64,000 nt of DNA. Origin: Chryseobacterium sp. Its GTDB lineage: Bacteria; Bacteroidota; Bacteroidia; Flavobacteriales; Weeksellaceae. Shown piece by piece: positions 42,403-63,999 of the stretch. Below the pieces are notes generated by a model that saw nothing but the letters and a program-made list of their open reading frames with translations, was not told the origin of the DNA and did no database searches. The position numbers and the translations under genes were made by a program. The stretch lies in NCBI RefSeq assembly GCF_019236175.1, contig NZ_JAFAJM010000009.1:186001-250000 (forward strand). The letters run 5' to 3'. Within the stretch, counting starts at the first letter, position 1; every line of letters begins with the position of its first letter.

Positions 42403-42445
42403 ATACAAGGACAGCTTCTTTAGCAGGCTGTCCTTGTATATTTTT
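42403..42445. terminator. Terminator after the VOC gene, shared with the SWIM gene
   Basis: A perfect 13-bp ATACAAGGACAGC/GCTGTCCTTGTAT stem is followed by a T-run, between converging genes. Confidence 0.85.
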
Positions 42446-43787: not shown

Positions 43788-43790
43788 AAA

Positions 43791-51493: not shown

Positions 51494-52045
51494 TTAATTA
51501 TTCTTCAGACACCAGTGTAAAATTTTTGCGATATTTTTAGCATCATCCACTCCTCTGTGATGGGTGCCTTCCAGCGCAAAACCAAGCTCATCTAGGGCTC
51601 TGTTCATTCCTACACTTTTCCTGATGGTAGGATGCAACTGGCCAAATAGAGTTTTTACATTAATGTGATCATCACTCATCGGATAATCAGTATAAAATCT
51701 TCTTGCCTGATGCTGGAGCATATTGAGATCATAATTTCCGTAGCTTGCCCAGGTCAGTTCCTCCGAATCATATTCTGCTCTCAGGATATCGAAGGCATCA
51801 TCCAGCATGACTCCTTCATTATCGAGAATGTTTTGTGTAAGCGTTGTAAGTTCCGTACAAAACGGACTTACTTTTGAAAATTGAGGTTTTATAAGGATTC
51901 CCTCATTTCTGGAGACCTTACCGGTTCTGGCATTCATGATACAGACACCGATTTCAATGATCTCACTTTCCTGTCCTCTTGGCGGCCGGTTTTCCCAACA
52001 CGTTGCTTCAAGGTCTACAATGAGTATGTTTTCTGTTGTTTTCAT
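51494..52045 (-). CDS. DEDDh 3'-5' exonuclease, copy 1
   Basis: The 183-aa form from the ATG at 52045 is preferred. It is a DnaQ/KapD-like exonuclease with Exo I IVDLEATCWEN (Asp11, Glu13), a middle SYGNYDLNML and Exo III HHRGVDDAKNIA with the catalytic His and Asp. It would trim RNA or DNA 3' ends. It is the second of two paralogues, on the strand of the RNA-ligase operon and 95 nt downstream of copy 2. All catalytic residues are intact. Confidence 0.88.
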   Translation of the reverse strand: MKTTENILIVDLEATCWENRPPRGQESEIIEIGVCIMNARTGKVSRNEGILIKPQFSKVSPFCTELTTLTQNILDNEGVMLDDAFDILRAEYDSEELTWASYGNYDLNMLQHQARRFYTDYPMSDDHINVKTLFGQLHPTIRKSVGMNRALDELGFALEGTHHRGVDDAKNIAKILHWCLKNN

Positions 52046-52139
52046 TTGTTTATATTTTTTAAAATTGGAAGAGAGGCACAAAAGGTAATATTCACATCAT
52101 TATTTATAATTTATACTTACCTTCCGGCCTTCCATCGGA

Positions 52140-52688
52140 TTATTTACCCAGAATATGGCTTAAAATTCTGGCTGTATTATAGGCATCATCTGCTCCGTTG
52201 TGGTGGTTTCCTTCAAAATCCATATTCAGATGATCCAGGGCCCTTTTAAGACCTACTGATTTATAAAGTCTGAAATGTCTTTTAAACTCGTACATTACAT
52301 TCAGATAATGTTCTGAAAAAGGGTTTTTAATACCAAGCCAGTCACATTGTTCAATGATCTGTTCTCCGTCGAAATTCCCATATCCGGCCCAGGTAAGCGG
52401 TTCCGAATGGTATTCATCTTTAATTTTTTCGCAGGCTTCTTCAAAATAGATTCCTTTTTCTTCGATCAGCTGTGGGGTAATTCCCGTCAGCTTTGTACAG
52501 AATCTGTTAACTTCCGATCTTTCAGGAATTACATAGATGCTTTGTTTTTGGGAAATTGCTTTTGACGTTACATTAAGTTTGCAAATTCCTATTTCTATAA
52601 TATCAACTTTCTGCCCTGCAGGAGGTCTGTCATTTTCCCAACAGGTAGCTTCCAGATCGATAATTAATATTTCATTGGTTATTTTCAT
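52140..52688 (-). CDS. DEDDh 3'-5' exonuclease, copy 2
   Basis: This 182-aa protein parallels copy 1: IIDLEATCWEN (Asp11, Glu13), GYGNFDGEQI and HHNGADDAYNTA. The two are clearly paralogous but diverged, so they may have different substrates. It lies between the phosphoesterase and copy 1. It may trim damaged RNA 3' ends before ligation or degrade failed products; this is inferred from context. Confidence 0.88.
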   Translation of the reverse strand: MKITNEILIIDLEATCWENDRPPAGQKVDIIEIGICKLNVTSKAISQKQSIYVIPERSEVNRFCTKLTGITPQLIEEKGIYFEEACEKIKDEYHSEPLTWAGYGNFDGEQIIEQCDWLGIKNPFSEHYLNVMYEFKRHFRLYKSVGLKRALDHLNMDFEGNHHNGADDAYNTARILSHILGK

Positions 52689-52785
52689 GATTGATTGTTC
52701 ATATACATGATGATGGAAAGTCAGACAGCAGAAATCTAAAGGGATATATCCGCTTTAATTCCGTCATTATGACTGTCTTCCCGTT

Positions 52786-53349
52786 TTATTCTCTCGGACT
52801 GAACGGCGGAATCCATTTTTTCTTCATCATAATTTCTTTAACTTCTTCGTAGGAGACCGGATAAAAATTATGACAGTCTACCCCGACATCAAAGCTTAAT
52901 GCCATCTCGTCATCCGGTAAGGTTCCGTGGGAATGTCCGTATAGCTGCCAAACTCCGCGGTGTGAGCCGTTCCATGTACGCATGGCGTAGTGAAAAAGAA
53001 TAATTTTCTGTTTTCCATTGTTATTGTCCGGTTCATTAATTTTTAATTCATGATAGTCTCTTAACGAAGCAAAGCGTTTAGGATAAGTTAAGGCCGCTCC
53101 TTCATGATTTCCTTTTATCAGATGAATTGTTCCGTTTAAACGATCTAAGATTTCTTTTGTAAAATCAGGTTTTCCCAAGCTGAAATCACCTAAATGATAG
53201 ACTGTATCTTCCGGTCCTACTTTCTCATTCCATCGTTGAATCATTTCTTCATTCATCTGTTCCATAGATTCAAAAGGTCTTTCGGAAAATCGGATAATAT
53301 TTTCGTGACCAAAATGATGGTCTGCTGTAAAAAATATATTGGGTTTCAT
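52786..53349 (-). CDS. Calcineurin-type metallophosphoesterase
   Basis: This 187-aa protein keeps the full metal site: Asp10 and His12 (DHHFGH), Asp55 (LGDFSLG), Asn81 and His82 (GNHEG), His120 and GHSH at 138-141. The family hydrolyses phosphomonoesters or diesters. With an RNA ligase just upstream on the same strand, a role in removing 2' or 3' phosphates or opening cyclic phosphates is plausible. A 23-bp hairpin occupies its leader. Confidence 0.88.
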   Translation of the reverse strand: MKPNIFFTADHHFGHENIIRFSERPFESMEQMNEEMIQRWNEKVGPEDTVYHLGDFSLGKPDFTKEILDRLNGTIHLIKGNHEGAALTYPKRFASLRDYHELKINEPDNNNGKQKIILFHYAMRTWNGSHRGVWQLYGHSHGTLPDDEMALSFDVGVDCHNFYPVSYEEVKEIMMKKKWIPPFSPRE

Positions 53350-53376
53350 TGTTTTAATTGTTTTAAATTGTGATCA

Positions 53377-53447
53377 CAAAAAGGATTGCTCTTCCAAAGC
53401 TTACCCTATTTTTCAATATACCATCTTTGGAAGAGCAATCCTTTTTG
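53377..53447 (-). repeat. 23-bp perfect hairpin in the phosphoesterase leader
   Basis: Arms 53377-53399 and 53425-53447 are perfectly complementary around a 25-nt loop. The minus-strand 3' arm carries CTTTGGAAGAG, identical to the 11 bases at the 5' end of the tRNA-Phe-like gene at 56422-56494 and its flank. The stem is unusually long for a terminator and should be an RNase III-type substrate. It could control the phosphoesterase-exonuclease unit. Confidence 0.7.
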
Positions 53448-53460
53448 CAGTTTTGTAAAT

Positions 53461-53489
53461 AAAAAAGTTCCGGTAAAAAATACCGAAAC
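53461..53489 (-). terminator. Terminator of the RNA-ligase operon
   Basis: A GTTTCGGTA/TACCGGAAC stem is followed by a T-run on the minus strand right at the ligase stop. Transcription of the downstream phosphoesterase may need read-through or its own promoter. Confidence 0.7.
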
Positions 53490-54505
53490 TAAACTTTAAG
53501 AGTCATCAGCTCTTCTTTTATAAAATCAATCACTAAAGCATTCAACTTTTTGTTGATCTTTTTCTGTTCTTCTTTTTCGATAGTCGTAAAAACTGCCGGA
53601 AAATCCTTTTCAAAATCTTCTAAAATATCCTGCGCAAAAAGGCCGATTACCTTCCCAATCATTCGGGGTTCGAATTCACCAATCTTACTCATCACATTGT
53701 TCAGTCGATTGACAGTTGCATATAACTGGATCTCCACCCAGATATTTTGGGCTACCTCACTGAAATGAATCTGCTTATGAACAGTTTTCGGCTGCTTTTT
53801 AACCATTTTAGATTTCTCAATCCATTTTTCATTCTTATTTTTCAGAATGACTCTTGCTCCATTTCCAAAATATCGGGTTTTCAAAGTTTTTATAACAGTT
53901 CCTTCACACCTATTGTTTTCCATTTCAGGAAGCCCAAGCCAATCCGGAATCTTAGAATCAAAAGCATTCGGGTATTTCAATACCTCTTCCAGAGTTCCCT
54001 GAAACAAAGTTTTTGCATAGAAAAATCCGGTTTCTTCAAAAACGGAGTTGGTCAGATCGGTATCCAGATAGGTCGTTCCGTTCAGCTTAATGTCGAATGC
54101 ATAAAATTCATTGTAAGGAGCATATTCGATGCCCTTCTGTACCTTTACAGCACCCTCAGCCGGTTCTACTCCCTTATGTTTGTAACCGCCACCGAATAGC
54201 TCACCATAGATTACCACTGTCTTAAGATCCGGATATATAGTTTTTACTTTCCGGAATACTTCAATAACATTATTGTTGTAGCGTTCCAGAATTTGATGGG
54301 CATTGAAAAATTTTTCATCTTTTCCGATGAAAGCAGTTCTTTTCGCGATTTTAATTTCCTTCCCGTCGGTAAAGAAAGAGAAATTAGCTCCGTGAACTTT
54401 TTCCTGTACGATGAAAACCTCATCCCCAAACCCCTGCAGTCTGATCTGTTCGATCACGCGGGCCTGGTAAGCATTTTCTATACTGTTATATGTTTTGAAA
54501 ATCAT
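53489..54505 (-). CDS. T4 Rnl2-type RNA ligase
   Basis: This 338-aa protein matches the size of T4 RNA ligase 2 and keeps all nucleotidyltransferase motifs: nucleophile Lys36 in EKVHG, Arg56, Glu102 in YGELFG, the FYAFD strand at 135-139, Glu201 in CEGTVIK and Lys222/Lys224 in LKNKN. The family seals 3'-OH/5'-P nicks in RNA, best when bridged in duplex. It is the last gene of the operon YkuK-ATP-grasp-cREC-ligase, spaced 11 nt from cREC. A tRNA or structured RNA substrate is suggested by the array upstream. Confidence 0.93.
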   Translation of the reverse strand: MIFKTYNSIENAYQARVIEQIRLQGFGDEVFIVQEKVHGANFSFFTDGKEIKIAKRTAFIGKDEKFFNAHQILERYNNNVIEVFRKVKTIYPDLKTVVIYGELFGGGYKHKGVEPAEGAVKVQKGIEYAPYNEFYAFDIKLNGTTYLDTDLTNSVFEETGFFYAKTLFQGTLEEVLKYPNAFDSKIPDWLGLPEMENNRCEGTVIKTLKTRYFGNGARVILKNKNEKWIEKSKMVKKQPKTVHKQIHFSEVAQNIWVEIQLYATVNRLNNVMSKIGEFEPRMIGKVIGLFAQDILEDFEKDFPAVFTTIEKEEQKKINKKLNALVIDFIKEELMTLKV

Positions 54506-54516
54506 TTCTTTTTGTT

Positions 54517-54888
54517 TTAATAGTTTTTAAAGTTTTTTAAAAGGCTGATAATATTTTCCTTTCCTACAGGATTCATAGAGTGACAATAGAACATTGGTAA
54601 GTCTAAATAATGATCCATACAGTATTCCGTGAGCCATTTTGCACAATCATAGCCTGTTTTTTCAAGCCATTTCCGGGCATTGTTTTTTAGCTCATGTTCA
54701 TCTCCAAGGTCATGATCAAAAGATATTATTTCCGGAAGTCCTTTTTCTAAAATCCTGTTGACAAACTCTTCGTAGTTTCTTACAATATGCCAGTCTTTTC
54801 TAAGGAAAATGTCCTGATCCGTATACTGATATACTTCAGCCGGATATCTGATATCATCCAGAAATAATAATCCTTTTGTTATTTCCAT
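54517..54888 (-). CDS. Cyclic-phosphate-processing receiver (cREC)
   Basis: This 123-aa stand-alone receiver-fold protein carries the cREC pattern: LFLDDIRYP (Asp11, Asp12), WHIVRNYEEF, ISFDHDLGDE (Asp58, His59, Asp60), GYDCAKWL and HSMNPVGKENI. The family is predicted to process RNA 2',3'-cyclic phosphate ends and travels with RNA-repair genes. This is comparative-genomic inference, not biochemistry. It lies 9 nt after the ATP-grasp gene and 11 nt before the ligase. Confidence 0.88.
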   Translation of the reverse strand: MEITKGLLFLDDIRYPAEVYQYTDQDIFLRKDWHIVRNYEEFVNRILEKGLPEIISFDHDLGDEHELKNNARKWLEKTGYDCAKWLTEYCMDHYLDLPMFYCHSMNPVGKENIISLLKNFKNY

Positions 54889-54897
54889 CGTTTTTGT

Positions 54898-55683
54898 TTA
54901 CTCATTATTGATCCAGTCTGTCACAGTCTTTAAAAAGTGCTGTCTTACTTCTTCAAATCTTGTGATATTGGGAATATGATTAATTTCCAGCAAATGCTTT
55001 GTTCCGTCTTTCTGAATGATATAATCATTGGCAATCACATCCATTCCTATTTTATCTTTCAGCATCAGGGTATCTTCTAAAAGCCCGGCATCAATTTCCA
55101 TCATCCGGGCATTATCAGGATGAATGGATTTCAGCCAGGTTTCACCTTCAAGACTGATCTGCCATGATTGTTCACCAATATGTAAAATCCTTACTGCTTC
55201 GCCTTCAAAATAGGGTTCTAAAACACTGTTTTCCCAACTTTCCCAATTTCCCGTAAACTTGTGCTTGTTTTCTCCACAATGCCAGTTTCCCCATTTGGCA
55301 ACCAGTTCTGTATCTGTTTTCACATAGGTATCTGCAGAAATAAATCCTCTCGGAGAATTAAATTTAGAATATTTCATAGCTTTTACGAGGCACGGGATTT
55401 TCAATCTGCATTCCAGCATACCGAAATCATTTGGAAAGCAGGGGCCGTTCCACAAAGCCAGTCCTGCAATAAAATCAAGATCATCTTCAAAAATTCCGTG
55501 ATATATCATTTTGTCTACCGGAAGCATACCTACTCCCTGAGCTTTTTCAACATACAATGTTCCGTCCGTCACTTTGATTTTCGGAATCGACTGATGCCAG
55601 ATGATAAGGCCGTCAAAATGTTCTCTTATATATTGGTATTCCTGTTCGTGTAAGCCAACAACGGCTATTCTACTATGTATCAT
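54898..55683 (-). CDS. ATP-grasp-like protein of the RNA-repair operon
   Basis: This 261-aa protein has an ATP-grasp-like C-terminal half: EPYFEGEAVRILHIG, then NDYIIQKDGTKHLLEINHIPNI carrying the metal-binding Glu and Asn. The N-terminal third (IAVVGLHEQEYQYIREHF) looks like a pre-ATP-grasp Rossmann part. ATP-grasp enzymes in RNA-repair neighbourhoods are suspected ligases or modifiers of RNA ends. The exact reaction is unknown. It starts 21 nt after the YkuK-like gene. Confidence 0.8.
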   Translation of the reverse strand: MIHSRIAVVGLHEQEYQYIREHFDGLIIWHQSIPKIKVTDGTLYVEKAQGVGMLPVDKMIYHGIFEDDLDFIAGLALWNGPCFPNDFGMLECRLKIPCLVKAMKYSKFNSPRGFISADTYVKTDTELVAKWGNWHCGENKHKFTGNWESWENSVLEPYFEGEAVRILHIGEQSWQISLEGETWLKSIHPDNARMMEIDAGLLEDTLMLKDKIGMDVIANDYIIQKDGTKHLLEINHIPNITRFEEVRQHFLKTVTDWINNE

Positions 55684-55704
55684 GTTTTTAGTTTTATAAA
55701 AAGA

Positions 55705-56190
55705 TTAAACCATCATATCAGCACAATTGGAACTTGCGAAAGCAAAGGGTTTTGCTTTAAACACGTATCCCATTCCGAGAATATATCCCATCGCATCTTT
55801 TAATGCTACATTGGATTTAAAATCGGGATCGGTATTAATGTCTGCGTGTACCTCCATTTCTACTCCATAAGTGTCTAATACAGAACAGATCGCGTAAGCC
55901 GTTTCTACGGATTTGTTGACCTCGTTCAGCATTCGTTCTTTGATACTGATAGTCTGTATTTCTCTTTCTTTTCTAATAAAGGTAAACGCTCCTTTTCCCT
56001 CACGAATAAATACTACTGCTGTAGCGTAGCTGATGGCTTCTCCATATACATGGGAATCTGATCCCACACATACTTTCAGACGATGCCCGTTTGCCTGTTC
56101 GCGGATAATGGCTTCTTCTACCAGCTGCGTAATAGAATTTCGGAAAATTTTTCCGTTCATATTCTGCCATATTTGTTGTTGCGTTTCCAT
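55705..56190 (-). CDS. YkuK-like RNase H-fold protein
   Basis: This 161-aa protein of the YkuK (DUF458) group has VCVGSDSHVYG with a catalytic-type Asp45, IREGKGAFTFIRKERE, VHADINTDPDFKSN and a C-terminal GMGYVFKAKPFAFASSNCAD. The RNase H-like fold and acidic residues suggest an RNA-directed nuclease or binder. It is the first protein gene after the tRNA array: the array's tRNA-Gln ends 60 nt before its ATG and no terminator separates them. Confidence 0.85.
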   Translation of the reverse strand: METQQQIWQNMNGKIFRNSITQLVEEAIIREQANGHRLKVCVGSDSHVYGEAISYATAVVFIREGKGAFTFIRKEREIQTISIKERMLNEVNKSVETAYAICSVLDTYGVEMEVHADINTDPDFKSNVALKDAMGYILGMGYVFKAKPFAFASSNCADMMV

Positions 56191-56250
56191 TTCTACATAT
56201 TTTTATTTATAATTCATAAATGATTGTTGATATTTTATTTCCGGTTTTTG

Positions 56251-56323
56251 TTAATTCATTAGGACTCGAACCTAAACTCCAAGAATCAAAATCTTGTGTG
56301 CTGCCCCATTACACTATGAATCA
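56251..56323 (-). tRNA. tRNA-Gln(TTG)
   Basis: A 73-nt full cloverleaf: acceptor TGATTCA/TGAATTA with one G-U, D stem GTGT/GCAC, anticodon stem CAAGA/TCTTG with loop TTTTGAT (anticodon TTG), T stem TTAGG/CCTAA, A73. CCA is not encoded. It is the last array member before the YkuK-like gene. Confidence 0.85.
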
Positions 56324-56421
56324 GATTTAAAAAGGTGAGTATAAGAAAATCGGTAATGAGTAATCATCTTACTGTCTGAGCATTTCTTACCCATTACCTG
56401 TTACTTATCATTCGTGTTTTG

Positions 56422-56494
56422 TGGAACAGGCAGGAATTGAACCTGCACCTTTAGTTTTTCAGACTAACGTGCACACCTTGTACACCACTCTTCC
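56422..56494 (-). tRNA. tRNA-Phe(GAA), acceptor mismatch
   Basis: A 73-nt cloverleaf with anticodon loop CTGAAAA (GAA), anticodon stem TTAGT/ACTAA and T stem GCAGG/CCTGC. Acceptor GGAAGAG/CTGTTCC has a G-G mismatch at pair 5-68. A73 present, CCA not encoded. The mismatch is unusual for a housekeeping tRNA. Confidence 0.8.
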
Positions 56495-56502
56495 AAAGTG
56501 TT

Positions 56503-56543
56503 CCGGCCAGTACATTATCTGCCATGTAATTCAAAATCACCGG
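56503..56543 (-). repeat. CCGG-flanked hairpin, copy 1
   Basis: The minus strand runs CCGGTGATTTTGAATT and ends CTGGCCGG, with an inner TACAT/ATGTA stem. The ends match the element at 56919-56981, so the two form a small second repeat family within the array. Confidence 0.5.
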
Positions 56544-56576
56544 CTGATAATAACTTGCCTCTTATTTATATTCTTG

Positions 56577-56649
56577 TACGGAAAGAGGGACTCGAACCCT
56601 CAATATCTTGATCCTAAATCAAGCGTGTCTGCCATTCCACCATTTCCGC
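56577..56649 (-). tRNA. tRNA-Leu(TAG) without long variable arm
   Basis: A 73-nt molecule with acceptor GCGGAAA/TTTCCGT, the D-arm signature typical of bacterial Leu tRNAs (GGTGGAATGGCAGACACG), anticodon loop TTTAGGA (TAG), T stem GAGGG/CCCTC and A73. The variable region is only ATATT (5 nt), where bacterial tRNA-Leu normally has a 12-15-nt arm. It is thus a class II tRNA reduced to class I size. Confidence 0.8.
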
Positions 56650-56703
56650 AGATTTTTTGAGTACCGATAATAAATTACCTTTAATTATCCGTTATTTAGG
56701 TTT

Positions 56704-56777
56704 GAGAAAGCTCTGTCGGATTATAAACTATGCCTGCTAGTGTTTGTAAGATCTTCTGCGCTTGACAAACCTTTCTC
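56704..56777 (-). repeat. Array hairpin element R1
   Basis: A perfect 7-bp outer stem (GAGAAAG/CTTTCTC) closes a 74-nt, tRNA-sized unit followed by A, as at position 73. Inside, GTTTGT/ACAAAC pairs around the core AAGCGCAGAAGATCTT. The minus-strand direction is taken from the neighbouring tRNAs. No T-loop sequence is present, so it is not an ordinary tRNA. Confidence 0.7.
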
Positions 56778-56830
56778 TTTTCCTAATTGTTATATATGAT
56801 TCCTGCTCATCTATTATTTTGTATCCAGAA

Positions 56831-56892
56831 AAAAAAGGCAGTCTGTATTTCGTATTTGGTTAAAGATCTTCTGCTCTCGACAAACCTTTTTT
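56831..56892 (-). repeat. Array hairpin element R2
   Basis: An 8-bp outer stem (AAAAAAGG/CCTTTTTT) encloses TTTGTCGAGAGCAGAAGATC plus TTTA and a CCAAAT pairing partner. It has the same layout as R1 with a different stem sequence. Confidence 0.65.
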
Positions 56893-56918
56893 CTTTTCTT
56901 ATTTTTTTTGAATGGTGA

Positions 56919-56981
56919 CCGGCCAATGTATTTTTCAAATTTGAATTTTCATGGTATTAGTATCAATTCAAGATTGACCGG
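56919..56981 (-). repeat. CCGG-flanked hairpin, copy 2
   Basis: Outer stem CCGGTCAAT/ATTGGCCGG pairs over 9 bp with one G-U. An inner TTGAATT/AATTCAA stem closes the hairpin. The ends resemble the element at 56503-56543. Confidence 0.55.
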
Positions 56982-57000
56982 TTCATTCATTCACATCCTG

Positions 57001-57072
57001 TACTCTATAAGGGAATCGAACCCTTATTTTCTGCTCGAAAGGCAGACGTCCTCACCATTAGACGAATAGAGC
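57001..57072 (-). tRNA. tRNA-Glu(TTC), copy 1
   Basis: A 72-nt cloverleaf: acceptor GCTCTAT/ATAGAGT with one G-U, D stem GTCT/GGAC, anticodon stem TCTGC/GCAGA with loop CTTTCGA (TTC), T stem AAGGG/CCCTT, A73. It shares its T arm with Glu copy 2 but differs in the acceptor and anticodon stems. Confidence 0.87.
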
Positions 57073-57077
57073 AATTA

Positions 57078-57148
57078 TCCACTGACCAGGAATCGAACCT
57101 GAACAACAAGAGTACATTTCCTGCATGCTGCCATTACATTATCAGTGG
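57078..57148 (-). tRNA. tRNA-Thr-like, anticodon loop lacks U33
   Basis: A 71-nt cloverleaf with perfect acceptor CCACTGA/TCAGTGG, D stem ATGT/GCAT, T stem TCAGG/CCTGG and A73. The best anticodon stem CAGGA/TCTTG leaves loop AATGTAC, giving TGT (Thr) at 34-36 but A at position 33 instead of the near-universal U. Alternative registers break the stem, so the isotype is uncertain. Confidence 0.6.
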
Positions 57149-57152
57149 CTGG

Positions 57153-57289
57153 TGGAAGTAGCAGGATTCGAACCTACCCAGCAATAAAGCAACAGATTTT
57201 ACTCTCTGTTATTTTCCATCTTTTAAGGAAACGTTCAATTTGTTCCTCATCTCAGCCCGCCCCCAACTCTCCAGTTTCAGCGTACTTCC
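57153..57289 (-). ncRNA. tRNA-Tyr-like element with about 50-nt insertion
   Basis: A 137-nt element. The acceptor is perfect (GGAAGTA/TACTTCC), the T arm is good (GTAGG/CCTGC, loop TTCGAAT) and the variable arm is long (14 nt, class II). Anticodon stem ACAGA/TCTGT holds an 8-nt loop GAGTAAAA containing GTA (Tyr) without U33. Between D-loop-like bases and the anticodon stem lie about 50 extra bases that fold around AGGAAC/GTTTCCT. CCA follows A73. It is either an intron-bearing or a remodelled tRNA. Confidence 0.6.
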
Positions 57290-57340
57290 GTTTTTATAAG
57301 ACATCAGTATTTTTCTGATTTCTTATTTTCCTTTTTTAAT

Positions 57341-57402
57341 AAGAAAAAGCCTGTTTCAATTTGTTTGACTAAAGATCTTCTGCGCTTAACAGACTTTTTC
57401 TT
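57341..57402 (-). repeat. Array hairpin element R3
   Basis: A perfect 9-bp outer stem AAGAAAAAG/CTTTTTCTT encloses core AAGCGCAGAAGATCTTTA and a following GTCAAAC partner that can pair with GTCTG/GTTTG-type bases. Length 62 nt. Confidence 0.7.
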
Positions 57403-57482
57403 TTCTAATAAAGGATATTTTATAAGTGTGATCATATTCCCCTTATTCCGGTTACCGACTTTCGGTACAGACCACTACCTGG

Positions 57483-57564
57483 AGATGGTTATGGGATTCA
57501 AACCCACTCAGCTTACGCAGCGGTTTTGCAGACCACCCCGACTCTTCCGCTTCGGCGAACCATC
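57483..57564 (-). tRNA. tRNA-Cys(GCA) with long variable arm
   Basis: An 82-nt molecule with perfect acceptor GATGGTT/AACCATC, D stem CCGA/TCGG, anticodon stem GTGGT/ACCGC with loop CTGCAAA (GCA), and T stem GTGGG/CCCAT. The discriminator is U73, the main CysRS identity base, followed by encoded CCA. The variable region is 12 nt with a GC-n4-GC ministem, whereas normal tRNA-Cys has a short one. It recalls selC*-like and other unusual Cys tRNAs. Confidence 0.8.
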
Positions 57565-57615
57565 AGATTTATAATGAATAAAATAATTTATGCTGAGTCT
57601 TATTTATTCATTTAA

Positions 57616-57680
57616 AAAATAAAGCCTGTCCTGATTTTTTGTTTGATATAAGATCTTCTGCGCTTGACAAACTTTATTTT
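57616..57680 (-). repeat. Array hairpin element R4
   Basis: A perfect 9-bp outer stem AAAATAAAG/CTTTATTTT, different in sequence from R1-R3, encloses TTTGTCAAGCGCAGAAGATC plus TT and a CAAAC partner. Length 65 nt. Confidence 0.7.
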
Positions 57681-57730
57681 AACCTAAAATTTTATAAATG
57701 ATATTTCTGATTCCTGCCTGTTGATCATTG

Positions 57731-57809
57731 GGAGAGAAGGAAAAGTCTGTCTTTGTTTTTGTATTTGGTGTAAAGATCTTCTGCTCTTGACAAACTTTTA
57801 TTTTTCTCC
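57731..57809 (-). repeat. Array hairpin element R5
   Basis: Outer stem AAAAG/CTTTT, extended by GGAGA/TCTCC past an internal mismatch loop, encloses TTTGTCAAGAGCAGAAGATC plus TTTA and a CCAAAT partner. Length 79 nt. It is the first R element on the transcript. Confidence 0.65.
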
Positions 57810-57835
57810 TGAAACAATTAACATTGAGTTATCTG

Positions 57836-57907
57836 CGATTCCGGAAAGATTCGAACTTTCAACTTCCGGTTTAACAGACCGGTGCTCTGCCATTGAGCTA
57901 CAAAATC
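57836..57907 (-). tRNA. tRNA-Asn(GTT)
   Basis: A 72-nt cloverleaf: acceptor GATTTTG/CGGAATC with two G-U pairs, D stem GCTC/GAGC, anticodon stem CCGGT/ACCGG with loop CTGTTAA (GTT), T stem GAAAG/CTTTC. G73 is the AsnRS identity base. Confidence 0.87.
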
Positions 57908-57912
57908 ATTTG

Positions 57913-57984
57913 TATTCCATAAGGGAATCGAACCCTTATCTTTCGGTAGAAAGCCGAATGCACTCACCATTATGCTAATGGAAC
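57913..57984 (-). tRNA. tRNA-Glu(TTC), copy 2
   Basis: A 72-nt cloverleaf: acceptor GTTCCAT/ATGGAAT with one G-U, D stem GCAT/GTGC, anticodon stem TTCGG/CCGAA with loop CTTTCTA (TTC), T stem AAGGG/CCCTT, A73. Confidence 0.87.
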
Positions 57985-57990
57985 AAATAG

Positions 57991-58062
57991 TCTGGAAAGC
58001 AAGATTCGAACTTGCGACCTCCCGCGTCCAAGACGGGTAAACAACCACCGTTATCTTTCCAG
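57991..58062 (-). tRNA. tRNA-Pro(TGG)
   Basis: A 72-nt cloverleaf: perfect acceptor CTGGAAA/TTTCCAG, weak 3-bp D stem (AAC/GTT), anticodon stem CCCGT/GCGGG with loop CTTGGAC (TGG), T stem GCAAG/CTTGC, A73. The bacterial Pro feature C1-G72 is kept. Confidence 0.85.
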
Positions 58063-58128
58063 CTCTGGGGCTCACTTCCAATTCTTTTCCGGGAGACAGC
58101 CGGAGCAGAAAATTTCCATGAACCTTCG

Positions 58129-58202
58129 TAATCCCAGAAGGACTCGAACCTTCAACCTTCGACGTATCAGGTCGACGCTCTAACCAATTGAGCTATGGGA
58201 TT
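58129..58202 (-). tRNA. tRNA-Ile(GAT)
   Basis: A 74-nt cloverleaf with perfect acceptor AATCCCA/TGGGATT, D stem GCTC/GAGC, anticodon stem TCGAC/GTCGA with loop CTGATAC (GAT), T stem GAAGG/CCTTC and A73. Acceptor pair 1-72 is A-U rather than the usual G-C. Confidence 0.87.
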
Positions 58203-58212
58203 TTATATTTGG

Positions 58213-58284
58213 GGTATCTCCGGGAATCGAACCCTGTTCTCCGGTTCCACAGACCGGCGCTTTACCAAATAAGCTAGAGAAACC
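58213..58284 (-). tRNA. tRNA-His(GTG), first gene of the array
   Basis: Anticodon stem CCGGT/ACCGG with loop CTGTGGA gives GTG. G-1 and C73, the HisRS identity pair, are present and CCA follows. The acceptor GTTTCTC/GAGATAC has a U-U mismatch, and the 3' half is one base short, so either the T stem or acceptor stem loses a pair. It begins directly at the T-run of the hairpin at 58287-58316. Confidence 0.78.
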
Positions 58285-58286
58285 AT

Positions 58287-58316
58287 AAAAAAAGCGCCTC
58301 TTTTCGGGAGGCGCTT
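58287..58316 (-). terminator. Terminator-like hairpin at the head of the array
   Basis: A perfect 9-bp AAGCGCCTC/GAGGCGCTT stem is followed on the minus strand by seven T residues, then within three bases by tRNA-His. No room for a promoter exists between, so array transcription must read through it. It follows the small ORF at 58341-58466. Confidence 0.75.
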
Positions 58317-58340
58317 CATTTATTTTAATATACAAGATCA

Positions 58341-58466
58341 TTAGCTGACCCACGTATATAAGCACCTTTTATCCACAATTTCACTTTCAAGAATACACAC
58401 AGTACCCACCGGCCCCTGTCCGAATAGTTCTGAATATTGATTGAGTATGTGATGTAATTGTTTCAT
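58341..58466 (-). CDS. Small ORF 1 (41 aa) upstream of the tRNA array
   Basis: The ORF begins ATGAAACAATTACATCACAT and encodes MKQLHHILNQYSELFGQG, then a hydrophobic TVCILE segment and DKRCLYTW near the end. A terminator-like hairpin follows 25 nt after its stop. A GCAAAGTA word (TACTTTGC on the minus strand) about 70 nt upstream is a near-match to the -7 box. It may be a small protein or leader peptide. There is a weak resemblance to small ORF 2 (an S/A-EL start, acidic segment and Cys). Confidence 0.5.
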   Translation of the reverse strand: MKQLHHILNQYSELFGQGPVGTVCILESEIVDKRCLYTWVS

Positions 58467-58853
58467 TTTATTTTTTGTTTGTTTTTAAATTATTTTTTTG
58501 AAATCCTGAAAACCTGTTGCTTTCAATTTTCGGTTGCAAAGTAAATATGATTTTTTTTATCCTGCAAATAAATTTAAATATCAACTTATTGAAAACCAGG
58601 TAATTATAATTAATTTTTAGAATAGAAGATTTCTGTCCGCAATAGGTTGCGGATATTTAAATTACCTAAATGACTGTCTCTCACCGGGTTGCTTATCACT
58701 CTATTTTAGCGTATTAAAGTTTCATTGCTCATTAAAAAATTTTCATGTTTATGGTTATTTTTTTTCATTCTAAATAATTTCTGACCTAAAAAACAAAAAA
58801 CGCCTCGAAAAATCGAGGCGTTTCTGCTATATTTTGATTAAATTTTTACAGGT
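58467..58853. other. Intergenic region between the two small ORFs
   Basis: It holds a terminator hairpin at 58795-58823, a perfect TCCGCAA-TAGG-TTGCGGA hairpin at 58636-58653 and the probable promoter of small ORF 1. No further gene was seen. Confidence 0.5.
58795..58823 (-). terminator. Terminator after small ORF 2
   Basis: A CGCCTCGA/TCGAGGCG stem is followed by a T-run on the minus strand. The CGCCTC stem resembles the hairpin after small ORF 1. Confidence 0.75.
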
Positions 58854-58982
58854 TTACAGTAAATAATTTCCAAAGTCAGCACATTTCGCCTCATTCCATA
58901 TCACCTCATCATATACGAACAACCCCTTTGTAGACGGGCTTTCGCATAGTTCTGCATTGATATGTGCTCTTTGTATTGTCAT
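58854..58982 (-). CDS. Small ORF 2 (42 aa)
   Basis: It encodes MTIQRAHINAELCESPSTKG followed by LFVYDEVIWNEAKCADFGNY. A clean -7 box (TATCTTTGC) lies 12 nt before the ATG and a terminator after it. It thus has the parts of a real monocistronic small gene. Two Cys and no signal peptide; function unknown. Confidence 0.6.
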   Translation of the reverse strand: MTIQRAHINAELCESPSTKGLFVYDEVIWNEAKCADFGNYLL

Positions 58983-59119: not shown

Positions 59120-60142
59120 TTAATGTCTGAACATCTTGTTTCTTCCCGTTTTAAATCTTGAGATATCTTTTAAAATCACCTCATCATCGGGATTGAAATA
59201 TTTCAGTTCATTCACAATTTCTGAACGGGTGCTCACTTTTCCCGCAATAATTTCATAACCTATATTCCGGATGACGGATTGCAGCTCCGGAGTTTTTCTG
59301 AATTCATATTTCATAACATCCAGATAAGTAATCTTTTGATAATCCGGAGTTGTCTCATACAGTGTCTGTATTTCTTTTTCCAGATTTTGAAGATCAGAAA
59401 TATTGGCAAAATAGTTATTTAAACAATTGAATGCGTCTTTGTCTTCTTTCCATCCTTTTAACAGTACTTTTTGTGCTTCTTCTGTTTTTTCCATCTTTTT
59501 ACGGTATACCAGAGAAGCTTTCACCATCTGGTTATTGGCCGTATAGTCATCAGCAACCATCTGGTAGTAGATATGAGCATTTTTAATATCATTGATTTCT
59601 TTATAAAGGTCTCCTACTTTTTCTTTCTGCTCCATTTCTTTATAGAGTTCAATGGCCTTTTTATATTGTTTTGCCTTTTCGTAGCAAACGGCGGCATCGG
59701 ATTTATTTCTTAATTTTTTAAGATAAACGACTGCCGCTTCATTATAAAACTCGCCATTTTCCAGTGTTTTTGCACCTCTGTAATTATCCTGAAGAAGATT
59801 CATATAAACCTTTGCAGCTTTTTTATAGTCATTTTCTGCAATATATTTTTCAGCAAGTTCTTCGTATTTATTTCTGATTCTGTCAAAAAGGGAAGTTTCC
59901 AGATAAAAGCTTCCACCGCCCATGCTTCTTTTTCCCGACTTCCGCTCACTTTGTTCTTTGTTTTTCAGAGCAGTAATAACAAGAAGAATAATAAAAGCAA
60001 CGATCAGGAAAATCACCAGTGTTCCGATCACACTCCACCAGCTCTCATGGAATAGCTGAGCAATAATGCCTACTACTTTAAACATAGCAAGCAGCACAAA
60101 GGCCGCCATAAATTTGTCGATAAATTTCTGCTTATTCATCAT
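59120..60142 (-). CDS. TPR membrane protein of the vWA/bpX cluster
   Basis: This 340-aa protein has two N-terminal membrane helices (about residues 10-30 and 34-56), then a cytoplasmic tetratricopeptide-type solenoid with repeats such as YIAENDYKKAAKVYMNLL and YEKAKQYKKAIELYKEM. Its start overlaps the bpX-like gene by 11 nt. It is probably a membrane scaffold partner for the upstream vWA/propeller proteins. No catalytic motif. Confidence 0.82.
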   Translation of the reverse strand: MMNKQKFIDKFMAAFVLLAMFKVVGIIAQLFHESWWSVIGTLVIFLIVAFIILLVITALKNKEQSERKSGKRSMGGGSFYLETSLFDRIRNKYEELAEKYIAENDYKKAAKVYMNLLQDNYRGAKTLENGEFYNEAAVVYLKKLRNKSDAAVCYEKAKQYKKAIELYKEMEQKEKVGDLYKEINDIKNAHIYYQMVADDYTANNQMVKASLVYRKKMEKTEEAQKVLLKGWKEDKDAFNCLNNYFANISDLQNLEKEIQTLYETTPDYQKITYLDVMKYEFRKTPELQSVIRNIGYEIIAGKVSTRSEIVNELKYFNPDDEVILKDISRFKTGRNKMFRH

Positions 60143-61823
60143 CTTCAGTGTTTAAAAGTGTTTTATCATCCCTGAACAACCGGTAAAGAAGCAACATGAC
60201 ACAAATAACAAGAGCCCATACAAACCAGTTGTATCCGAACATTCTCACCAATGGATAAAACAGATAGACCAACATAGCAACAAGAATTGCTATGAGAAAA
60301 ATTTTTATCCAGCCCGGTACGTTATCCCCACCCAGACTCAAGGATTTTTTCTTGAAAACGAAGGAGTATATTCCTACTGCTCCTATGATAAAGATAACCA
60401 GATAAAGAATATCTGAAATCCCGGTTTTCTCTTTCATCTGATTTCCACGGGCATCAATGCCTTTTACTTTAGATTTCTGGATGGCTGCAGAAGGTGTATC
60501 CTTATGATCTATGGTTCCGTATAGTCTGCCCAGAGAGTCTTCCATCAACGCCTGTCTTTTTTTCAGAAGGTATTTTACAACATCTCCGTTGACTGGTTTT
60601 CCATGAGTATACTGCTTTAGAGAATCTGAAATTCTACGTTTCAGCTTTTCTGTTTTTCCTTCAACCTGTTGTTTAATTTTTTTGCTATAAATAATTTTCA
60701 GAGAGTCTCTGCTTTTCTGCTCACGATTAACCAGCTTATCAATGTCAGGACTGATTTCATTAAGACTTCTTCCTCCTGATTTTCTGTATTCTTCTCTTTT
60801 TTTCTCTTTAGCAGCGATCATTGCACTTGCCACAGCCAGCTCTTTGGATAACGCAGTTCTTTTTTTATGATAGATAGAGTCAATTTTCTGATCAATTTCA
60901 GAAATTCCGGACTGAAAAGCTACCCTATCGGAAGGAGCTTTCAGGGCATCAGCAGCTATTGTTCCTGATGACATTTTATTTTCGTCCTGTTCCTGTTCAG
61001 TACTATTTTTTTCTGAAGGTAATGCAAACCTTAAAATAACAGCAATAATTAAAATACCCCAGAAAATATTGCGCGATTTTTTATTTCCGGTGCTTTCGGA
61101 GTTTCTTCCGAACAGGTTATCTAGCCAGGTAAATTTACTGAACCCATCTCCTCTGGATGTTCCCATGATATCTAAAGGGACTCCGAGTTCTATTGTTCTT
61201 TCAGGGTATTTCTCAATATATTTTAAATATTTTTCAATCTCTTTTTTATTTCCCGCCATTACTTTTTTCAAATCAAAGGGCAGGTTGTTCATCCATTCTT
61301 CTTCGGTTGGTTTAGATTGCAGAGCTTCCAGTACTTTCTCATCATCCATTTCAACAGTATAACGTTCAATGGTCTTTGGAATTTTCACCCCGTTAAGAGG
61401 TTTTCTGATTACTTCATTTATGATTTCCGGATTCTGAACAAGGGCTATCCAGTCTATTTCTTCGGATAACTTCACCAATCCGAATTCCGGATGCATAATC
61501 AGAAATCGGGAATCAAGCTGTTCCCAGTCTTCAGGATTAATTTTAGGATAAAAAACCGTATTTTCAGGAATAAAAAGCCGGTCATCTACGCTCTGGAAAT
61601 AAGCGTTTCTGCCGATTTCCTGTGGAACATAATCATCGAAAATAAGGAAACAGCCATATAGCAAATCAGGAATATTTGCAGGGACAGCATAAGATCTTAC
61701 CTCATTCAGACTGATTCCAAGCGTTTCCATTTCCTGAAGCCAAATCACCGGCGAGGAGCCTTTAATCAAAAGTCCCTTTTTAGGATATATATTTTTCGGG
61801 AAAGGTTTAATTCTAAGCTCCAT
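60132..61823 (-). CDS. bpX-like membrane protein
   Basis: This 563-aa protein has an N-terminal domain resembling the bpX domains of MoxR-vWA-beta-propeller ternary systems (PKKGLLIKGSSPVIWLQEME, then GCFLIFDDYVPQEIG). A single membrane helix lies around residue 250 (IFWGILIIAVILRFALP), followed by a charged coiled-coil and three or four C-terminal membrane helices. It overlaps the vWA gene by 11 nt. The bpX assignment is from remembered family features, so moderate. Confidence 0.72.
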   Translation of the reverse strand: MELRIKPFPKNIYPKKGLLIKGSSPVIWLQEMETLGISLNEVRSYAVPANIPDLLYGCFLIFDDYVPQEIGRNAYFQSVDDRLFIPENTVFYPKINPEDWEQLDSRFLIMHPEFGLVKLSEEIDWIALVQNPEIINEVIRKPLNGVKIPKTIERYTVEMDDEKVLEALQSKPTEEEWMNNLPFDLKKVMAGNKKEIEKYLKYIEKYPERTIELGVPLDIMGTSRGDGFSKFTWLDNLFGRNSESTGNKKSRNIFWGILIIAVILRFALPSEKNSTEQEQDENKMSSGTIAADALKAPSDRVAFQSGISEIDQKIDSIYHKKRTALSKELAVASAMIAAKEKKREEYRKSGGRSLNEISPDIDKLVNREQKSRDSLKIIYSKKIKQQVEGKTEKLKRRISDSLKQYTHGKPVNGDVVKYLLKKRQALMEDSLGRLYGTIDHKDTPSAAIQKSKVKGIDARGNQMKEKTGISDILYLVIFIIGAVGIYSFVFKKKSLSLGGDNVPGWIKIFLIAILVAMLVYLFYPLVRMFGYNWFVWALVICVMLLLYRLFRDDKTLLNTEDDE

Positions 61824-63999
61824 AATCCAAAATCTGTTCTATAAATGCTTTTAAAAAACGGGAACACATCTCCTCCATTGTTTTTACTTTCAGCAAAGTA
61901 TGTTCGGGAAGGTAATATTCAGAGCCTCCAAACTCGGTATACGTAGCGAGTGCTAAAAAGCCATGGGCCGTAGATGGAATAAAAAACTCTTCAATTCCTT
62001 TATTGCTGCTTCGGAAAACCAGCATACCACGGGAATCTCCGATGATTTCACTTCCATCAGGAAATATAAATTTGTTTTTATTCTGTTCTGCAAAAATTTT
62101 AATATCCGATCTGTTTTTATACAAATTCAGGGAATTTTCATACAAACTGCTCAATTCGTTTCCGGAAACAACCAGGTTATGACTTTCATTAACCCCGACA
62201 TTATTAAAATTGTTGATAATTTTCAATCCGCTTCGGTTCAGTTTTGCGACCTCTGCTTCTGCCTTTGTATTGTTTTTTTCTATGTCTTTTAATTTACCGG
62301 GAAGAATTTCAACAGAGATATTTCCGTCTATATTTATTTTGTATAATGCGCTGTGTTCAATATGATGCAGATAAAAGCTTTTTCCAAAATAAATTAATTC
62401 GTAGGAAGCCGGAATATTCAACCCGGTAAGATTCTGTTCCGAATATTCTTTGGTATTAATATTAAGTTTGGAGATCAGTTTTTTATCAGACTGATACTGG
62501 CACAGGATAAAATGCTGTTGTTTATTTTTTGCCAGAGCAAACTGACCTCTTGGCTTTACAGAAATATTTTCAAATAAAACTTCACAACCATGATAGGTCT
62601 TATAATAATCATAGGAATGTCTGTCATAATAATTATCTGAAAGATAGGTTTTCAGCAGCTGCTTTTTTGAACTCAGAATAAAAAACTCTCCTTCGTATAA
62701 GAACTGAGCCATTTTATTAACCGGTGTAGGAAAAAGAATCGGGTAATTTTGCGGAAGATCTGTCTTTTTTCCGTTATTATTTTCAGCAGTATGCTTCCTG
62801 CGCGGCGGATTAGCCCATAGTTCCTGAAGAGGAAGTTGTATTCTCTGAATATGTTTCCTTGCTCCTTTATCCTGTTTATAAAAATTAACTTCACCGCCTG
62901 CTGTGGTGGTCACCAGAAATTTGAGGCGGTCTCTGTTCTGATGAATGACTCTCTGAATCTTTTCATCTGCCATATTTTCCTGATGGGTCATGAAAAAGAC
63001 TTCAATGTCTTTTTCGGACTGTTCTTCATAAAAAAACTTTTCAAGCGCTTCTGAAACTTCCAGTACAGGGCTTACCTGATTCAGGTTTTCAATTACCGAT
63101 TCAGTTGTATCAAGAGAAATCTGTACACCGGTCTGGCCTAAGGCAAAAACCCTGCATTCCGAATGGGCTTTCGGATGTTTAATCACTGCTATTGCTGAGG
63201 CAAAAGCCAGAACCTTAGGAGTTCCCCAGTTTCTTAGCGAGGTATCGATCAGAATAATTCTTTCAAAAATATTTTCTTCCGGAGGTATTTCTCTTTGAAT
63301 ATAAAGCGCTTCATTATTAGCCACACGATTCATAAATACTTCATCATCATTGGCAAATTCGGAAAGAAGCATTCTGTGAAAATCACCTTTATTGGTCATA
63401 TCGGAAATCCCTCCTACTGGCTGTTCACCCGGAGAAAGATGCCGCATAGGAATTTTCAGGCCGCTCCAGATTCTTTTAATAAGGCTACCTACCTGAAATG
63501 TTTTAGGCTCTTCAATTAATTCTTTAATGAAATCTTTATCCGTTTCGGTGGATATATCTTCCTGAACGATTGCATCATCCAGGTCCGGTTTTCCTGCAAA
63601 GCCTTTCATTGCTTCAATGATAGATTCTGCTGTAGGGAACCTTTCGTTAAGCTGCAGTACTCTTATATCACTGACAAAAGCTGAGAATGTAGCGGGTTGT
63701 TTCTCTGCACTTACAGCCAGCTCATAAGGTCTTTTATAATATACATTCAGGAGAGCATCGGCATGAGTTGAAGATTTTCCCTGCCGGCTATTAGTGAATA
63801 TAGTTTGTAAAAGCAGTATCCTGTTTTGGCCTTGTTTATAAACTTTTGGAAGTGATTTTATTGTAGTAAGAAACAGAATGGCCCCCTCTACATTGGCAGG
63901 ATGTCCTTCATTAACAGCAAAAGCTCCTGTTTTATGCAAATCAGCTGTACGTCTTATAGCTCCCGCAACATCTGTATATCCGTCCTGCATTGCATACAA
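61813..63999 (-). CDS. vWA/beta-propeller protein, 5' end outside the window
   Basis: The reading frame is open to the window edge; the visible 728 residues are the C-terminal part, and a TTG at 63999 is unlikely to be the true start. A vWA-like region has MIDAS-type IILIDTSLRNWGTPKVLAFA. After a linker comes a beta-propeller-like half (FILCQYQSDKKLISKLNI, GKSFYLHHIEHSALYKINI). It fits the vWA or bpX component of a MoxR-vWA-propeller system, so a MoxR AAA+ gene is expected just right of the window. Confidence 0.75.
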   Translation of the reverse strand: MYAMQDGYTDVAGAIRRTADLHKTGAFAVNEGHPANVEGAILFLTTIKSLPKVYKQGQNRILLLQTIFTNSRQGKSSTHADALLNVYYKRPYELAVSAEKQPATFSAFVSDIRVLQLNERFPTAESIIEAMKGFAGKPDLDDAIVQEDISTETDKDFIKELIEEPKTFQVGSLIKRIWSGLKIPMRHLSPGEQPVGGISDMTNKGDFHRMLLSEFANDDEVFMNRVANNEALYIQREIPPEENIFERIILIDTSLRNWGTPKVLAFASAIAVIKHPKAHSECRVFALGQTGVQISLDTTESVIENLNQVSPVLEVSEALEKFFYEEQSEKDIEVFFMTHQENMADEKIQRVIHQNRDRLKFLVTTTAGGEVNFYKQDKGARKHIQRIQLPLQELWANPPRRKHTAENNNGKKTDLPQNYPILFPTPVNKMAQFLYEGEFFILSSKKQLLKTYLSDNYYDRHSYDYYKTYHGCEVLFENISVKPRGQFALAKNKQQHFILCQYQSDKKLISKLNINTKEYSEQNLTGLNIPASYELIYFGKSFYLHHIEHSALYKINIDGNISVEILPGKLKDIEKNNTKAEAEVAKLNRSGLKIINNFNNVGVNESHNLVVSGNELSSLYENSLNLYKNRSDIKIFAEQNKNKFIFPDGSEIIGDSRGMLVFRSSNKGIEEFFIPSTAHGFLALATYTEFGGSEYYLPEHTLLKVKTMEEMCSRFLKAFIEQILDYGA

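Follow-up and report, generated by a model that had tools for sequence, protein, structure and literature searches.

The stretch of DNA analyzed here, referred to as the window, consists of 64,000 nucleotides (nt) from a draft assembly of Chryseobacterium sp. in 24 contigs, and all coordinates are given as positions within it. An array of 11 tRNA genes was identified by ARAGORN between positions 58284 and 56250, with all of the genes arranged head to tail on the minus strand and followed on the same strand by a group of genes that includes an RNA ligase. The array encodes, in order of transcription, tRNA-His(gtg) (58211..58284), tRNA-Ile(gat) (58128..58202), tRNA-Pro(tgg) (57990..58062), a first tRNA-Glu(ttc) (57912..57984), tRNA-Asn(gtt) (57835..57907), tRNA-Cys(gca) with a long variable region and U73 (57480..57564), a Thr-like tRNA with the loop AATGTAC that lacks U33 and is unlikely to decode (57078..57148), a second tRNA-Glu(ttc) (57000..57072), tRNA-Leu(tag) without the usual long variable arm (56576..56649), tRNA-Phe(gaa) (56421..56494), and tRNA-Gln(ttg) (56250..56323). 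The descriptions of the Cys, Thr-like, and Leu genes also draw on class features. Nine of these genes (His, Ile, Pro, both Glu, Asn, Leu, Phe, and Gln) scored above the Rfam gathering threshold within the window, and a tenth (57078-57148) was recovered in the whole-genome scan. A twelfth member was found by eye at about 57152-57289 on the minus strand, where a Tyr-like copy carries an insertion of ~50 nt between the D arm and the anticodon arm and is probably dead; an intact tRNA-Tyr of 85-87 nt occupies this position in five relatives (L046-L049 and L051). The twelve tRNA or tRNA-like genes proposed in a first-pass annotation of the window are thus accounted for.

For comparison, a scan of named genomes returned 135 relatives, and the best 80 were examined (the named loci, 76 of which are titled Chryseobacterium). 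The tRNA-Gln gene, which ends at 56250, is separated by 59 nt from the first open reading frame (ORF), which begins at 56190. The terminator scan gave no site between these positions, in agreement with the short, terminator-free gap described previously. A separate promoter for this first gene would have spoken against joint expression with the array, and none of the Bacteroidota type was found in the gap, either in the window or in the 77 of 77 named relatives that carry the gene; a promoter-like site lies somewhere inside the array in one of the 77.

The first gene after the array encodes a YkuK-like protein of the RNaseH_like family (55705..56190, minus strand; Pfam PF04308, 9.3e-31), which accompanies the array more constantly than any other protein. 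It is followed on the same strand by a 261-residue protein (54898..55683) that is accessory (11 of 80 named loci), cREC, a predicted cyclic-phosphate-processing receiver domain (54517..54888; PF20274, 3.7e-23; 71 of 80), the Rnl2-family RNA ligase (53489..54505; TIGR02307 and T4_Rnl2_C), a calcineurin-like phosphoesterase (52786..53349; Metallophos; 67 of 80), and two RNase_T/DEDDh-type exonucleases recognized by domain search (52140..52688 and 51494..52081). The ligase scored 208.2 bits against TIGR02307 (cut-off of 197.15) and matched T4 Rnl2 at 4e-43, and its KxHG motif (EKVHGANF) is present in 11 of 11 aligned ligases. The score of cREC against PF20274 was 82.4 bits (cut-off of 27); its enzymatic activity is a published prediction (PMC7824862, PMC9503650). 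The initial labels of these four proteins as YkuK-like, cREC, Rnl2, and phosphoesterase were therefore confirmed by the Pfam and NCBIfam matches. The label of ATP-grasp for the 261-residue protein was not, since there was no Pfam or NCBIfam match and no convincing solved relative; its AlphaFold2 model has a mean predicted local distance difference test score (pLDDT) of 52.9. The model of the YkuK-like protein has a pLDDT of 73.7, with residues 139-161 below 50, and a fold search listed RNase H entries among its matches, none with E < 0.02. No RtcB or RtcR domain was found among the operon genes. All 20 genomes of the genus encode RtcB at another place, and its presence is therefore uninformative as to whether it stands in for a missing ligase.

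Five copies of a hairpin RNA, of ~65-81 nt, are interspersed with the tRNA genes on the minus strand. The copies are found at 57734..57803, 57613..57680, 57338..57402, and 56826..56893 (77.4, 82.2, 75.7, and 71.5 bits, respectively, with the covariance model R1), and a long variant at 56699..56779 is a weak match (37.7 bits). RNAalifold predicted an 11-bp stem in which six pairs are changed on both sides. When the alignment was evaluated on a hand-named structure, 96.4% of the cells could pair, with 21 two-sided cell changes relative to 5.7 in shuffled alignments. A pattern search gave 230 copies across 75 of the 80 named loci, at least one of which (L135) lies outside an array. Within its own genome the model has six matches, five in the array and a marginal sixth (E of 8.6e-4). 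The model also matches 29 of 148 genomes of the family, including 10 of 11 ligase-negative genomes of the genus, and at E <= 1e-6 it is restricted to 2 of 90 genera of the order. No Rfam family was matched above threshold, nor at E <= 0.5 in a lax search. The possibility that these elements are plain terminators was rejected, as their loop is conserved and the terminator scan was silent, although the hairpins exceed the loop limit of that scan. The hairpins form a family of structured RNAs that matches nothing in Rfam and may be previously undescribed. The first-pass annotation recognized the array and the operon; it missed this RNA family and the leaders and terminators that lie upstream at 58287-58982.

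Same-strand tRNA genes lie directly 5' of the homologous genes in all 80 named loci, which argues that the array is not there by chance; their absence from related genomes would have undermined the earlier proposal. A YkuK gene with 1 to 18 same-strand tRNAs (median of 13) within 6 kb on its 5' side was found in 77 loci, and 75 of these have at least three tRNAs, for 981 tRNAs in all. YkuK was not matched in the remaining three loci (L167-L169, titled Flavobacteriia, Flavobacteriaceae, and Flavobacterium), where 10, 10, and 1 tRNAs stand directly before the ligase. The ligase query matched 12 of 148 family genomes, consisting of the genome itself, ten substantial matches, and one weak partial match, and in all ten other genomes with the ligase same-strand tRNAs are found beside YkuK (2 to 16 by ARAGORN). 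Across the phylum the ligase is found in 7 of 395 genomes at E <= 1e-30 and YkuK in 24 of 170 genera. In one more distant genus, an array with YkuK (L254) is ~22 kb from the ligase (L255). No tRNA was found within the 19-20 kb fetched around the ligase relatives L055, L256, and L257. Twenty more distant YkuK loci have no array within 1.5 kb, one of them having two tRNA-Lys genes downstream.

The ligase is accessory and not obligatory. Ten of the 11 ligase-negative genomes of the genus keep the hairpins, the array, and YkuK, and among 16 ligase-negative loci (10 from the genus and 6 from a second genus) tRNAs are present in 14 and YkuK in 13; L219 has retained hairpins and tRNAs, with no YkuK found. 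The notion that the ligase is the core of the system was thus rejected, because the other components persist without it. Arrays of the genus are larger when the ligase is present (9 positive and 10 negative genomes, Mann-Whitney p of 0.003, with no correction for kinship).

The sequences of the array tRNAs differ considerably from those of the rest of the genome. The array tRNAs of the window are 53-69% identical to housekeeping tRNAs with the same anticodon (10 genes, none being seen for Ile) and 72-97% identical to the array gene with the same anticodon in two distant species, where the lowest value may pair two different Glu copies. Housekeeping tRNAs with the anticodons of the array were found elsewhere in the genome, with the exception of Ile(gat), among the 150 of 309 candidates that were scored; the missing Ile(gat) is probably explained by incomplete rRNA operons in the draft. 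The determinants for aminoacylation are retained. When distinct array sequences were counted, the discriminator base was U73 in 38 of 38 for Cys, G73 in 24 of 24 for Asp, 6 of 6 for Ser, 50 of 51 for Asn, and 43 of 44 for Trp, and C73 in 34 of 35 for His. The array tRNA-Pro has C1-G72 in 27 of 27, and the array tRNA-Gln has a weak U1-A72 pair in 34 of 35, relative to A1-U72 in the housekeeping tRNA. Position 37 differs from that of the housekeeping tRNAs in the array Pro, Gln, Glu, Asp, and most Arg(acg) tRNAs. These changes fit an escape from anticodon nucleases, by analogy with the proposal made for phage tRNAs with altered anticodon loops (PMC10264068). No tRNA for Ala, Gly, or Val was called across 77 arrays, and those for Ser and Met are rare there; Gly and Ser tRNAs are present in the array of the L254 lineage.

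The region preceding the array contains a promoter, a short ORF, and a terminator. The sequence TTTG-N20-TTACTTTG at 58537..58568 on the minus strand, which we take to be a promoter of the Bacteroidota type, is the sole full match between 56100 and 59120. It is followed on the same strand by leader ORF D (MKQLHHILNQYSELFGQGPVGTVCILESEIVDKRCLYTWVS; 41 codons, 58341..58466) and by the intrinsic terminator T2 (58287..58314), identified in the terminator scan, which ends 2 nt before tRNA-His. Transcription from this promoter can therefore reach the array only by read-through. The leader was surveyed in 97 loci (the window, the 80 named loci, and the 16 ligase-negative loci). The leader motif and terminator were found in 89 of these, and ORF D in 84, all among the 89; the misses were L108, L155, L158, L167-L169 (which have their own type of leader), L212, and L221. 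The promoter precedes ORF D in 89 of 89 loci with a spacing of 20 in all, and in 69 of 74 the end of T2 is no more than 30 nt from the first tRNA that was called (median of 2 nt), with a single outlier in which the tRNA call is 3 kb upstream.

Within leader ORF D, AGGTGCTT can pair with the 5' arm of the terminator. The predicted 5' arm of this antiterminator, AAGGTGCTTATATA (58355..58368, minus strand), is identical in 87 of 89 loci while the remainder of ORF D varies. The arms of the terminator itself covary, being GCGCCTC/GAGGCGC in 66 loci, GCACCTC/GAGGTGC in 16, and changed on a single side in 7 (n = 89). In nine loci that were folded, the antiterminator alone was predicted at -17.3 to -22.8 kcal/mol and the terminator alone at -12.7 to -15.0 kcal/mol.

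A second leader is located further upstream. ORF A (MTIQRAHI...GNYLL; 42 codons, 58854..58982, minus strand) contains GAGGCG, which is able to pair with the intrinsic terminator T1 (AGAAACGCCTCGATTTTTCGAGGCGTTTTT; 58796..58825, minus strand). ORF A and T1 were found together in 68 of 89 loci with strict patterns, 64 of the 68 ORFs being 42 residues in length, and GAGGCG is present in 60 of the 68; a terminator-like hairpin occupies the T1 region in 89 of 89 loci. Between T1 and the promoter, at about 58700-58610 on the minus strand, GAGAGACAGT is conserved in 87 of 89 loci, and a palindrome (TCCGCAA...TTGCGGA) lies inside a possible small ORF (RDSHLG...). Three other lineages (L167/L168, L054, and L254) have unrelated leader peptides with the same layout, and in L254 the arm and its mimic both differ and still match each other (ATCTCCTT and AAGGAGAT).

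From these features, we consider it probable that the locus is a conserved unit of spare tRNAs with RNA-processing and ligase genes, and that the leader and terminator form a predicted attenuator that would open when ribosomes stall or fail. A switch responding to failed translation is favored because the promoter is gated by a terminator and the pairing segment is situated within the leader ORF, where the position of the ribosome would be the natural control. Transcription would begin at the conserved promoter, with a ribosome following on leader ORF D. If the leader is fully read, the ribosome would occlude or melt AGGTGCTTATATA and the next hairpin, the terminator would form, and transcription would end just before tRNA-His. 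If reading of the leader stalls early or never starts, because tRNAs are cut, the cell is starved, or translation is blocked, AGGTGCTT would pair with AAGCGCCT of the terminator and the polymerase would continue through the array, YkuK, cREC, and the ligase. The released tRNAs, with their charging determinants kept and the body and some anticodon-loop bases altered, would refill the pool, while cREC, the phosphoesterase, and Rnl2 would clean and seal broken RNA. We infer these five steps as cellular events, including the induction by stalled translation and the repair by Rnl2, from the layout, conservation, complementarity, and identity bases that are read in the sequences.

A more complete version of this proposal holds that tandem cis-acting attenuators release charging-competent, loop-altered reserve tRNAs together with an RNA-mending toolkit, such that a single transcript would both replace and repair the pool after an attack, with the hairpin RNAs as part of the device. 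We regard the chances of this version as evenly balanced. It had been suggested at the outset that the locus is co-expressed to supply, protect, or repair tRNAs during attack by tRNA-cutting toxins. The supply of tRNAs is now supported by the conserved charging determinants, and for repair we can say that Rnl2, cREC, and the phosphoesterase would fit such a role. Attack by toxins may be one case, but the architecture of the leader points more widely to any failure of translation.

A number of results weigh against this interpretation. When the whole region was folded, the terminator was obtained in 6 of 9 loci and the antiterminator in 3 of 9; a fold that prefers the terminator might be compatible with a switch that is off by default but proves nothing. 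The antiterminator helix has no two-sided changes, and its support is therefore conserved complementarity and not covariation. The chance tests, made for each leader with arms picked by the analyst, are modest, with 42, 166, 711, 645, and 115 of 5000 shuffles reaching the observed run. The terminator of L254 was read by eye and was not flagged by the terminator scan. The fraction of array amino acids in ORF D is 0.76, relative to a background of 0.727, and a leader that senses the amino acids of the array was rejected by this composition test. Among the tRNAs, the array tRNA-Phe has G73 in 16 of 40 sequences, and U33 is missing from all 21 sequences of the gene called Thr(tgt), whose discriminator is mixed. 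No 5'-kinase domain, and hence no kinase-with-ligase arrangement of the Pnkp/Hen1 or T4 type of tRNA repair, was recognized by Pfam in a search confined to the genes at 51494-56190, where a single gene has no Pfam match; the sealing of breaks with a 5'-OH is therefore unexplained. Of the 20 genomes of the genus, 11 lack the ligase. Finally, the loci come mostly from one genus, and the counts are therefore not independent.

The array tRNAs could instead serve as decoys or sensors for anticodon nucleases, with the associated enzymes recycling the cut decoys. The strong divergence of the tRNA bodies would suit such a role, as would the disrupted Tyr copy of the window and the Thr-like gene with its variable "anticodon". 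The latter gene probably does not decode, because it lacks U33, has a mixed discriminator, and the same kind of loop is found in genes called Ile(tat), Thr(agt), and His(atg). A nuclease decoy would have no need for the discriminator and 1-72 identity bases that are conserved for each amino acid, and even the Cys gene, with its Tyr/Ser-like long variable region, keeps U73 in all 38 distinct sequences. The retained identity bases lower our estimate for decoys, which we consider unlikely, and favor chargeable spares.

It is slightly less likely that the leader answers some other signal, either stalling by one class of antibiotics or a protein that binds the leader RNA. Drug-sensing leader peptides are known (PMC12121999; vmlR, PMC9226507), ORF D is enriched in Cys (4.5-fold), Gln (2.5-fold), and His (2.4-fold), and a separate signal may enter through the second leader, A. 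The four unrelated peptides share a geometry and not a sequence, and this indicates that the position of the ribosome is what matters, rather than one peptide or a binding protein.

We think it improbable that the array was left behind by a phage or mobile element and that its tRNAs have persisted next to a chromosomal operon through drift. Phages do carry tRNA clusters and Rnl2, the array varies in size from 1 to 18, and viral contig L279, a possible phage counterpart, has 27 tRNA genes that surround a gene for an Rnl2-type ligase (32% identity). Against drift stand the conserved place and strand in 80 of 80 named loci and the 313 compensated stem cells in the array tRNAs versus 79 in shuffles, counted only for sequences with the commonest ARAGORN fold of each class. 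The nearest viral ligases are 38-39% identical over most of their length (one fragment of 53 residues is 40% identical), and none of 1381 phage records reached 60%. A scan for tRNAs in 31 of the 38 viral loci found was positive for three (L279 with 27, L293 with 6, and L294 with 1). A recent phage origin was rejected, as the ligase and YkuK have only distant phage relatives. A unit resembling a type III toxin-antitoxin system, in which the hairpin RNAs restrain YkuK as an RNase, is very improbable, despite the repeated structured RNAs that lie ahead of this RNaseH_like family gene. The hairpins are spread between tRNAs and not in tandem, they are found in 2 of 90 genera of the order (E <= 1e-6), against 24 of 170 genera of the phylum for YkuK, and they persist with tRNAs in L219, where no YkuK was found.

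The proposed unit of spare tRNAs behind an attenuator can be compared with several known systems. Transcription attenuators with leader peptides include those of trp and whiB7. Like these and vmlR, the locus described here has a short predicted ORF before an intrinsic terminator, and it may also have a competing antiterminator; in the literature searched, no leader of this kind was described ahead of a tRNA array. The nearest functional parallel appears to be the trn operon of Anabaena, a set of 26 tRNAs that is silent in normal growth; it is controlled, together with rtcB, by the repressor TrcR, and antibiotics that block translation relieve the repression of both (PMC10272220). Both systems pair tRNAs that are redundant with the housekeeping set, Ile(gat) excepted here, with an RNA ligase gene. 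The Anabaena array is borne by a plasmid and controlled by a repressor in trans, with RtcB elsewhere (PMC10272220), whereas here a cis-acting attenuator is predicted, the array is joined to the YkuK, cREC, and Rnl2 genes, and hairpin RNAs are present.

The Y RNAs of the Salmonella rsr-yrlBA-rtcBA operon have a tRNA-like part. That RNA ligase operon is induced by tRNA damage through the activator RtcR, which senses tRNA fragments, and it encodes RtcB and RtcA as well as the Y RNAs (PMC7790460). The present locus differs in having Rnl2, cREC, and genuine tRNA genes, with no RtcR-type activator among the operon genes. Phages also carry extra tRNAs with changed anticodon-loop bases, and coliphages carry rnl1 or rnl2 (PMC10264068), but the array described here is chromosomal, conserved in a bacterial genus, and known from sequence alone. 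The combination of a tRNA array with an RNA-ligase operon was not found in the literature searched; Burroughs and Aravind (2016) may mention the neighborhood. The HARP-ligase paper (PMC12153264) concerns a different ligase and has no arrays in the portion covered.

Other genes surround the locus. Upstream of the array, at 59120-63999, are genes of a MoxR-vWA-beta-propeller ternary system (bpX0, bpX1, and bpX3) and a TPR-like gene; the bpX3 protein and the TPR-like protein keep this upstream place in 70 of 80 named loci each. The main text of PMC7159879 (eLife, 2020) has no match for RNA ligase, bpX, YkuK, or cREC, with tRNA and RNA repair appearing in the reference list only. Downstream, at 42444-49002, are two DUF6493/DUF7824/DUF7825 proteins and a SWIM protein, which are found near the operon in 46, 45, and 29 of 80 named loci, respectively. 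A second, distant Rnl2-like ligase (33% identity) is encoded in the same genome at G000:C15:227756-228742 (L091, L055), with no tRNA in the 19 kb fetched. An RtcB gene (L297:1089-2723, on contig C8 of the same genome, G000; also L298 and L300) is followed ~100 nt later by a tRNA-like gene of 108-110 nt with an interruption in the anticodon arm, which Rfam finds in three of the four genomes fetched and for which ARAGORN gave no call in L086. Repeats that resemble the insert lie just downstream. The interruption is possibly a tRNA intron whose exons are joined by RtcB.

If the proposed unit of spare tRNAs behind a translation-responsive leader is correct, bacteria of this group would possess an emergency supply of tRNA that is coupled in cis to how the ribosome is faring and also tied to RNA repair. 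It would be a host-side counterpart of the tRNA arrays of phages and would account for the survival of redundant, diverged tRNA arrays in the chromosome. The hairpin RNA family is a new target for RNA biochemistry. With one leader and one terminator, the locus would also allow a direct genetic test of the switch and would provide a natural reporter for tRNA damage.

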